DNA of 64,000 nt, from the NCBI GenBank assembly GCA_021773645.1, contig JAJFJU010000015.1, forward strand, positions 186,001 to 250,000, read 5' to 3'. The position numbers and the translations under genes are program-made. The notes beneath the pieces are model-generated. The model had not been told where the DNA came from, searched no databases, and saw nothing but the letters and a program-made list of their open reading frames with translations. Below, one piece after another: positions 41,461-42,442 of the stretch. This DNA comes from Gammaproteobacteria bacterium (lineage in GTDB: Bacteria > Pseudomonadota > Gammaproteobacteria > HK1). Numbering within the stretch: position 1 is the first letter of the stretch; each line of letters opens with the position of its first letter.

Positions 41461-41615
41461 GCGGGATTCTCCTGTAAAAAATCATCGTATTCTACGAGGC
41501 CATCTTACCCATGACACTCGCCTCGTCAACACCTTAGATGGGGCTAAACCCTCCAAGTTTCAAGCCGCATACGACTTTCTTATCCCCACCCCAATACGCT
41601 ATCCTTCGCCCCCCT

Positions 41616-41703
41616 GGAGAGGTGGCCGAGCGGTTTAAGGCGGTAGTCTTGAAAACTATTGAACCTAACGGTTCCGGGGGTTCGAATCCCTCCCTCTCCG
41701 CCA
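41616..41703 (+). tRNA. tRNA-Ser (anticodon UGA)
   Basis: An 88-nt class II tRNA with acceptor stem GGAGAGG paired to CCTCTCC, discriminator G and an encoded CCA (41701-41703). The D loop reads CCGAGCGGTTTAAGG, the anticodon TGA is at 41650-41652 in a seven-base loop, and a long variable arm (CCTAACGGTTCCGGG) precedes the GTTCGAATC T loop. Confidence 0.96.
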
Positions 41704-41723
41704 ATTATTTTTTCTATCAGCAG

Positions 41724-41831
41724 GGAGGGCTGAGAACCCCCACCGGGTTCGACAACTTCGCCAGGAGCGAATTTGGACGCCCTAGCCCCCCGCAGGGGTA
41801 GCGCACAGGGAAGTGCGCCATCAATCCCTCC
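41724..41831. ncRNA. Multi-branched structured element downstream of tRNA-Ser
   Basis: A 108-bp segment that folds as an outer stem GGAGGG/CCCTCC (41724-41729 with 41826-41831). It encloses four hairpins: GAACCC/GGGTTC (41734-41750), TTCGC/GCGAA (41757-41771), CCCC/GGGG (41788-41798) and GCGCAC/GTGCGC (41801-41818). The GGGTTCGA and ATCCCTCC pieces resemble the tRNA-Ser T arm and 3' end. It lies between tRNA-Ser and the convergent cyclophilin gene. It may be a structured RNA, a terminator-like processing signal or a tRNA-derived repeat. I cannot assign a family. Confidence 0.5.
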
Positions 41832-41833
41832 GC

Positions 41834-42442
41834 TTATTTAGCCCCCTCAACCACTCGTTCCACCGACTTGATTTCCACTGCAGTTTGCGGCACATCCTTT
41901 CCAAACGGCCCGCCTGAACCAGTCGGGACCTTGCGAATCCGATCCATTACCTCCAACCCCTCTACCACGCGTCCAAAGACGGTATAACCCCAACCTCGAG
42001 CGGTGGGGGCGGTGTGGTCGAGAAAACTGTTGTCCACGACATTGATAAAAAACTGGGCCGTGGCGGAATGGGGATTTCCAGTGCGGGCCATGGCGATACT
42101 TCCGCGCAAGTTTTTGAGGCCATTATTGGCTTCGTTACGAATCTCAGCGTGAGTGCTTTTGCGTTGATAGCCCTGGTCGAAACCACCACCCTGAATCATG
42201 AAGTTTCCGATTACCCTATGAAAAATGGTGCCGTTATAGAAACCCTCATCCACGTAACGAAGGAAGTTGGCGACCGTAATAGGGGCCTGTGTTTGATTGA
42301 GCTCTAGAACCATGTCCCCCAAGGAGGTGTTTATCTGTACGCGTGGAGCACTTCCACCACTTGCCTGTAGCGGTGCCGCGGCGAGCATGAACAAAGCACA
42401 CAGGGCAATGACAGGGGTTTTCCAAACGGATACGTTAAACAT
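41834..42442 (-). CDS. Periplasmic peptidyl-prolyl cis-trans isomerase, cyclophilin type
   Basis: A 202-aa cyclophilin with a signal peptide (about 1-28, ending PLQASGG). The catalytic core carries the Arg-containing FHRVIGNFMIQGGGF, IAMARTGNPHSATAQFFIN and the ending GYTVFGRVVEGLEVMDRI. Similar to PpiA of E. coli (190 aa), which assists folding of exported proteins in the periplasm. The gene is monocistronic. The region upstream (42443-42826) is shared with the divergent response regulator. Confidence 0.92.
   Translation of the reverse strand: MFNVSVWKTPVIALCALFMLAAAPLQASGGSAPRVQINTSLGDMVLELNQTQAPITVANFLRYVDEGFYNGTIFHRVIGNFMIQGGGFDQGYQRKSTHAEIRNEANNGLKNLRGSIAMARTGNPHSATAQFFINVVDNSFLDHTAPTARGWGYTVFGRVVEGLEVMDRIRKVPTGSGGPFGKDVPQTAVEIKSVERVVEGAK

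Follow-up and report, generated by a model that had tools for sequence, protein, structure and literature searches.

An element downstream of tRNA-Ser(UGA)

Within the window, that is, the whole stretch of 64,000 nucleotides analysed here, a tRNA-Ser(UGA) gene is followed after 18 nt by a multi-hairpin element on the same strand (Table 1). Beyond it lies a convergent ORF, which was read by eye as a cyclophilin gene. An earlier note on this DNA had described the element at 41724-41831 as an outer 6-bp stem around four hairpins, placed after tRNA-Ser and ahead of a convergent gene. The stem and the hairpins were all located in the sequence, and the placement is right. The echoes of the 3′ half of tRNA-Ser that it had mentioned proved to be a 9-nt direct copy and a 20-nt inverted copy with 85% identity. 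The 3′ strand of the outer stem P1 falls inside the direct-copy remnant, and the 3′ strand of H1 runs on as a T-arm-like sequence (GGGTTCGA). H4 is the most conserved hairpin of the family (CCCGNAGGG), and H3 is degenerate in the window copy.

When the element was folded as RNA, the plus strand gave a z-score of -2.1 (2 of 200 shuffles as good) and the minus strand -4.1 (0 of 200); thus, the minus strand of the window copy folds better than the plus strand. The outer 6-bp stem is missing from the minimum-energy fold of the plus strand and present in the centroid.

Table 1. Features of the tRNA-Ser(UGA) locus in the window
Feature	Position	Strand	Basis
tRNA-Ser(UGA), linked tRNA gene	41616-41703	+	ARAGORN, Rfam tRNA
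Left arm, inverted copy of the tRNA-Ser T-arm/acceptor 3′ half (85% over 20 nt)	41722-41741 (versus 41676-41695)	+	Repeat search
Outer stem P1, GGAGGG with CCCTCC	41724-41729 with 41826-41831	+	Inverted repeat
H1, GAACCC/GGGTTC, 5-nt loop ccacc	41734-41750 (strands 41734-41739/41745-41750)	+	Inverted repeat, family consensus
Body, 71-nt hairpin cluster	41753-41823	+	Limits by comparison with relatives; covariance-model match 41747-41821
H2, TTCGC/GCGAA, loop CAGGA	41757-41771 (strands 41757-41761/41767-41771)	+	Sequence, model alignment
H4, CCCC/GGGG, 3-nt loop GCA	41788-41798 (strands 41788-41791/41795-41798)	+	Sequence, family alignment
H5, GCGCAC/GTGCGC, loop AGGGAA containing GGA	41801-41818 (strands 41801-41806/41813-41818)	+	Inverted repeat
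9-nt remnant of the tRNA-Ser 3′-end direct copy, AATCCCTCC	41823-41831 (source 41685-41693)	+	Repeat search
Convergent neighbour ORF	41834-42442	-	ORF list

Relationship to the TLR/RtT family

Rfam RtT (RF00391) aligns with the window element over its full length (1-130) at 15.5 bits (E 0.81), which does not reach the gathering cut-off of 45 bits. Two relatives score higher with RtT: the orthologue after the same tRNA in the sister genome G015 (L002/L021) at 44.7 bits, and a copy after tRNA-Gln(CUG) in the own genome (L022) at 35.8 bits. A covariance model of the body was trained on nine sequences, all from other genomes and genera with the window's genus excluded. With this foreign model, the window copy scores 40.0 bits (E 8.7e-9), and the runner-up in the 64 kb has 9 bits. 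The scores of the relatives and the match of the foreign model assign the element to the RtT/TLR kin and establish its homology to RtT.

TLRs, the tRNA-linked repeats of E. coli for which RtT is the Rfam family, are described in sections of PMC8144298 as known since 1978 and of no known function, with 22 members in ten loci; a claim of a role in the stringent response was retracted. According to the same sections, the last 18-19 bp of a TLR repeat those at the 3′ end of the tRNA or rRNA that precedes it. Parts of PMC4986893 place RtT also in Pasteurellaceae and report Northern signals of two RtT RNAs expressed beside tRNA genes in Actinobacillus, and a passage of PMC7657543 notes a tandem GA motif in RtT. 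Like TLRs, the window copy lies just downstream of a tRNA on the same strand and has a conserved body with covarying hairpins, as recognized by the foreign model. Of the copied tRNA end it keeps only 9 nt, whereas 17/18 positions agree in the orthologue (L021) and 18/18 in L022, the copy at tRNA-Gln in the window's own genome. Since the direct copy is mostly lost, the element was filed as a decayed relative of TLRs by descent and not as a complete TLR. Of the readings offered in the earlier note, the tRNA-derived repeat is right, with the inverted and direct copies both coming from the 3′ half of its own tRNA.

Other candidates were rejected. A chance structure is ruled out by the E value of the foreign model, and a plain terminator is made unlikely by the lack of a T run after the last hairpin of the window element. 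The matches of Rfam sX4 (37.9 bits) and of a plastid family (35.8 bits) at 41602-41733 mainly cover tRNA-Ser-like sequence, and SpF41, YrlA, permuted tmRNA, and PK-BYV gave weak matches only.

Distribution of the family

The earlier note had proposed a search for homologues with covariance models and related genomes. Of 274 genomes sampled from the class, 51 have RtT-like matches at E≤0.001, a lower bound under strict filters that missed G016; 18 were above the Rfam cut-off. Among the control genomes, 1 of 14 had matches, namely E. coli. In the order of the window, represented by one family in the sample, 3/17 genomes and 1/8 genera have RtT matches, and the one genus is that of the window. 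Thus, the element was not simply inherited of old in this order, or it has been lost elsewhere in it. A pattern scan of named genomes gave at least 118 stretches, and the titles among the listed matches are gamma-proteobacterial except for four MAGs (Auribacterota, Muproteobacteria, Rhodospirillales, and Mariprofundus).

Among the matches listed (81 loci, which are 80 of the at least 118 genome-scan loci plus L250), 76 of 91 have a tRNA on the same strand at most 329 bp upstream, a count that is not fully independent because the pattern contains five bases of the tRNA end. Seven of the remaining 15 lie within 300 nt of the start of the locus. In summary, RtT-like elements accompany a wide range of tRNA species across many families of the class, frequently with scores under the Rfam cut-off, and the annotation of tRNA flanks could therefore be revisited.

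No phage record matched the element at the DNA level; plasmid records gave three weak partial matches, and scans of viral contigs with the family pattern gave one and zero matches. The lone viral-contig match (L250, 10100-10500) has at least two tandem TLR units and no tRNA, and is possibly bacterial sequence in a viral collection.

tRNA-derived arms of the relatives

The typical order in the relatives is a tRNA, often a terminator-like hairpin, an inverted copy of the 3′ half of that tRNA, GGTTCGAC, H2-H5, GAGT, and the tRNA 3′ end once more as a direct copy. Such units are short, at roughly 150-190 bp, and often follow one another in tandem, with a conserved body. By eye, many relatives have the terminator-like hairpin with a T run between the tRNA and the element. 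Direct copies were compared with the 3′ end of their own tRNA in 85 rows, chosen at an identity of at least 14/18; 55 have 18/18, 20 have 17/18, and 10 are lower, where the rows include spurious ones (tRNA-Thr of L040 and L044, the second of L029, and the fourth of L104) and one region counted twice (L030 and L055).

The left arm was examined in 149 cases; the window copy is in neither this set nor that of the 85 rows. Its own tRNA gives a better fit than the other isotypes do on average in 140/149, and a score of 12 or more is reached in 110/149 versus 6/1490 shuffles. When only the acceptor side is used, 125/149 arms show the better fit to their own tRNA, and Ser and Arg are weak. By eye, the left arms at Ser and Arg track the T-arm and the variable region.

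Turnover in the genus and in E. coli

Three sister genomes (G000, G015, and G016) were compared, and their loci were read by eye. The model scan counts 5, 15, and 6 bodies, respectively. At tRNA-Ser(UGA), the element is present in G000 and G015 and absent in G016, where sequence like the window's convergent gene follows the tRNA without an element (L130); the edges do not align cleanly with the loci that bear it. At tRNA-Gln, all three genomes have an element, into which a further body is nested in G015. Behind Arg(CCG) there is a tandem pair in G015, a degraded nested element in G000, and a remnant in G016. G000 lacks an element at Arg(ACG), where G015 and G016 have one each. It also has none at Ser(CGA), where the other two genomes carry an additional, broken tRNA copy with a body in its T-loop. 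Ser(GCU) has worn remnants in all three genomes, and no element was seen at Ser(GGA) in G000, G015, or G016. These differences from locus to locus indicate fast turnover.

Some neighbouring features were also seen. The worn remnants of all three genomes (L121, L122, and L123) lie between tRNA-Ser(GCU) and tRNA-Arg(ACG), beside csrA. By eye, a stretch near CCTTTacAATCAAcGG follows tRNA-Ser(UGA) and its TLR in G015 (L002, about 1630-1760) and tRNA-Ser(CGA) in G016 (L126); it is perhaps another tRNA-adjacent repeat of about 110 nt. In G015:C5 (L011/L263, 1501-1580), a TLR body ends right at the ATG of an ORF that looks phage-like by eye, and GGGAGG in the H5 loop of this body might act as the ribosome-binding site.

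In E. coli, one strain with and one without the complete unit were compared at the tRNA-Pro gene between eptB and dppA (proK). The difference amounts to about 168 bp with GGTTCGA at the bounds, and 2684 of 5426 genomes contain 80% or more of the query from this locus. Since the two alleles differ by one whole tandem unit, they point to recombination between repeats and not to insertion. A 175-bp tandem-repeat change in rtT of Salmonella is reported in a part of PMC2658671. At the same E. coli locus (L304/L306), a REP-like palindrome was seen by eye just after the GGTTCGA of the last TLR unit; thus, a REP takes the place that the body has in complete units.

The body as a putative insert

As a decayed TLR relative, the window element is ordinary in kind. 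What is unusual is the body of TLRs, which has the look of a very small insert and is shared with REP-like palindromes. In the relatives, the body of 60-80 nt has the junctions of a precise insertion, placed at ..GA^A.. (in one case GA^G), which is a new observation from the junctions compared. The literature covered on rtT/TLRs, repeats downstream of tRNAs, palindromic elements, and RAYT/REPIN, mostly open-access, held no recognized TLR bodies in palindromes or nested in one another.

Three settings were found. Firstly, a CGTC-type, REP-like palindrome is intact at 14 places in the three sister genomes (two mismatches allowed), and a body-bearing form of it has 20 matches in the same three; intact and interrupted forms occur in the same genome. 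The whole body is present in 16 of the 20, after GA in 15 of these 16 (after GGGA in 9 of the 15) and with ATCC next in 14, as counted by eye on oriented sequences (L291 from its other strand). The stems vary, and 4/20 are partial or different. In Thiohalobacter (L203), a body follows GGGA in a similar palindrome. The palindrome expression has no match in the window itself. Secondly, bodies interrupt T-loops. ARAGORN calls a tRNA across the junction after excision of the body in 11/244 distinct bodies, where 244 is a loose denominator that includes starts within H2 or the left arm, and the T-loop bodies of L012 and L016 were missed. By eye, a tRNA-Met copy also has its antisense T-loop occupied by a body in L266 and L269. 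Thirdly, a body can be nested in another element. The tRNA-Gln repeat of G000 has an empty site, TTTGGA^ACAATTTT, at which G015 holds 71 nt with a one-base ambiguity. L115 has a similar nest at GGA^GC, for which no empty partner was seen.

The explanation that I favour, with reasonable if not high confidence, is that the window element is a decayed TLR/RtT relative at tRNA-Ser(UGA), that the TLR body is a small mobile DNA, and that the window copy is probably passive. The body would be a small non-autonomous element entering hairpin-forming DNA at GA^A without target duplication. Lodged in a palindromic copy of a tRNA 3′ end, it would give rise to a TLR, because the real tRNA stays intact. Copies would later spread and vanish as tandem units via recombination between the repeats, as the two E. 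coli alleles suggest. The transcript of tRNA-Ser would at most include the window copy as its 3′ trailer; if the copy does act, it would most likely do so as an RNA made by read-through, with CsrA bound at the GGA loops, as sections of PMC8144298 report for RrB, a TLR of an E. coli rrn locus.

How might such a body move? A tentative proposal, plausible but short of an even chance, is that it is a miniature mobile element, about 60-80 nt long and kept as strict Watson-Crick hairpins, which an HUH-type (Y1/RAYT-like) enzyme inserts at GA^A in hairpin DNA that is single-stranded; its insertions would then account for all of TLRs, nests, interrupted T-loops, and CGTC REPs with a body. Y1 transposase genes have one match with an in-frame stop in G000, two in G015, and nine in G016. 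They occur in 41/51 RtT-positive versus 133/223 other genomes (Fisher p 0.006, which ignores relatedness and genome size). In the genomes examined, no enzyme was linked to the body. If true, mobility of this type would explain the origin of TLRs and tie them to the REP world.

A rather doubtful alternative is that the T-loop cases are deletions between GGTTCGA copies and that the palindrome case is one ancient fusion that spread with the palindrome. A TLR and its tRNA share GGTTCGA and AATCC, and recombination between them would give an identical junction; moreover, one unit with GGTTCGA at its bounds is what separates the two E. coli alleles. Deletions of this sort could account for the T-loop cases, and the palindrome-borne bodies may go back to one event followed by spread with the palindrome. 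However, this reading leaves unexplained the 71-nt nest of G015, whose site is empty in G000, the nest of L115, and the bodies in the antisense T-loop of tRNA-Met, all of which recombination between tRNA and TLR fails to explain.

Covariation and a possible role as RNA

The covariation check that the earlier note had called for gave a strong signal; as homologues were found too, the outcome that the note had named as its refutation, neither homologues nor covariation, did not occur. In 118 distinct bodies, 93.1% of the cells are paired, double changes occur in 20/22 pairs, and there are 584 double-change cells versus 150 in shuffles and far fewer in slid controls, in an alignment (A5) that was fitted to the model, made from 100 chosen loci, and contains the nine training sequences. 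On the other hand, G-U pairs are only weakly above A-C. The body helices have 56 GU and 29 AC among 2385 cells (35:23 minus one pair, p 0.15 against equality), whereas the acceptor and T stems of 232 tRNAs from the same loci have 75:6. The pairing statistics thus do not demonstrate selection at the RNA level, and because G-U is rare, palindromes kept as DNA, or relaxed copies, fit better than a strongly selected RNA. The plus strand folds better in 85/108 bodies and 57/82 longer units (156/232 for tRNAs). This bias, together with the conserved hairpin loops, fits an RNA role better than purely selfish DNA.

A small structured RNA had also been suggested for the window element, and this is possible by analogy, since members of the family are expressed in E. 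coli and Actinobacillus according to the sections of PMC8144298 and PMC4986893 used here. The specific form is that read-through from tRNA-Ser would yield a processed RNA whose GGA loops (CAGGA of H2 and AGGGAA of H5) bind CsrA and tie its activity to tRNA transcription, as reported for RrA, RrB, and RrF of E. coli; I regard this as unlikely. The covariation and the better-folded plus strand of the bodies speak for it. GGA lies in a hairpin loop in 62/108 bodies, twice or more in 41 and twice in the window body (a raw count with no null), and csrA is encoded in G000 (two matches), G015, and G016. The sections of PMC8144298 report that RrA, RrB, and RrF bind CsrA and Hfq, with CsrA binding of RrB seen in vitro; the Northern signals from Actinobacillus are also in favour. 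Against it stand the ratio of GU to AC, far from that of tRNA stems, and the better fold of the minus strand in the window element itself. Moreover, those sections of PMC8144298 give CsrA-binding scores under 0.01 for the other 19 E. coli TLRs, which belong to tRNA operons, and the decay of the window copy and the absence at tRNA-Ser(UGA) in G016 argue against an essential role. A contrast between csrA and GGA loops is unusable because csrA is nearly everywhere (46/52 genomes) and the six exceptions are all drafts of about 210 or more contigs.

It is still less probable that the element is a device for 3′ processing or termination, in which the hairpins, together with the copy of the tRNA 3′ end, would direct an RNase to its cleavage site or halt RNA polymerase. 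The copied end is the hallmark of TLRs, and RNase E was proposed to recognize it in RrB (PMC8144298, in part); candidate attenuators similar to rtT are described in a portion of PMC2965389, and the element does lie between the tRNA and a convergent gene. However, many relatives already carry the terminator-like hairpin with a T run upstream, and the window copy has no T run behind its last hairpin and has mostly lost the copied tRNA end.

In tRNA-borne integration sites, attachment blocks resemble direct tRNA 3′-end copies starting in the T-loop, and such copies of the family do look alike; nevertheless, an old attachment site, that is, what is left of one end of a larger element that integrated by way of the tRNA 3′ end, is very improbable, for the short, often tandem units with a conserved body are not the two ends of a large element, the phage and viral searches gave a single viral-contig pattern match, and nothing was found in favour of this suggestion of the earlier note.

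Comparison with known systems

The favoured reading, a decayed TLR relative with a putatively mobile body, can be set beside several known systems. CsrB/RsmZ-type RNAs also have GGA in hairpin loops, in genomes with csrA; the window body differs in having two sites only and in its linkage to a tRNA. Its GGA loops suggest a direct test of the CsrA link outside E. coli.

General features of IS200/IS605-type and REP/RAYT single-strand mobility were used for a further comparison. The body resembles these systems in its richness in hairpins, its near-fixed target, and its single orientation to the target (for RAYT, as given in parts of PMC3733652). No target duplication was seen beyond the one-base ambiguity at the one clean G000/G015 pair. 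The body, whose mobility is putative, differs in having no linked transposase and no identified guide motif.

The link between rtT and palindromic repeats is not new in itself. A passage of PMC2965389 ties rtT-like sequence to the interspersed BIME repeats of enterobacteria as candidate attenuators; these differ in being sited upstream of genes, and the passage gives no insertion junctions. The palindrome of the genus, GTCATTCCCGCG..GCGGGAATCCA, fits the CGTC-tagged REPs in its CGTC stem, AT pairs, and CCA tail, as described in sections of PMC3733652, which also equate Neisseria dRS3 with CGTC-1. In the genus palindromes, the foot of the stem is where the body is inserted, and those sections of PMC3733652 have no such insert.

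The closest system is that of the E. coli TLRs (rtT of tyrT and rrA/rrB/rrF; RF00391). The window copy is like them in its position directly after a tRNA, in the GGAUGAGAACC..GGUUCGA core, and in the hairpins with GCCCGNAGGGC, and its relatives share the copied tRNA 3′ end and the tandem units. The window copy differs in its score below the Rfam cut-off, its 9-nt 3′ copy, its degenerate H3, and its two GGA loops, and the relatives differ in that they also sit in palindromes and inside other bodies. The comparison offers a concrete, testable origin of TLRs, in which a small hairpin insert with a near-fixed target would have entered copies of tRNA ends and REP-like palindromes alike.
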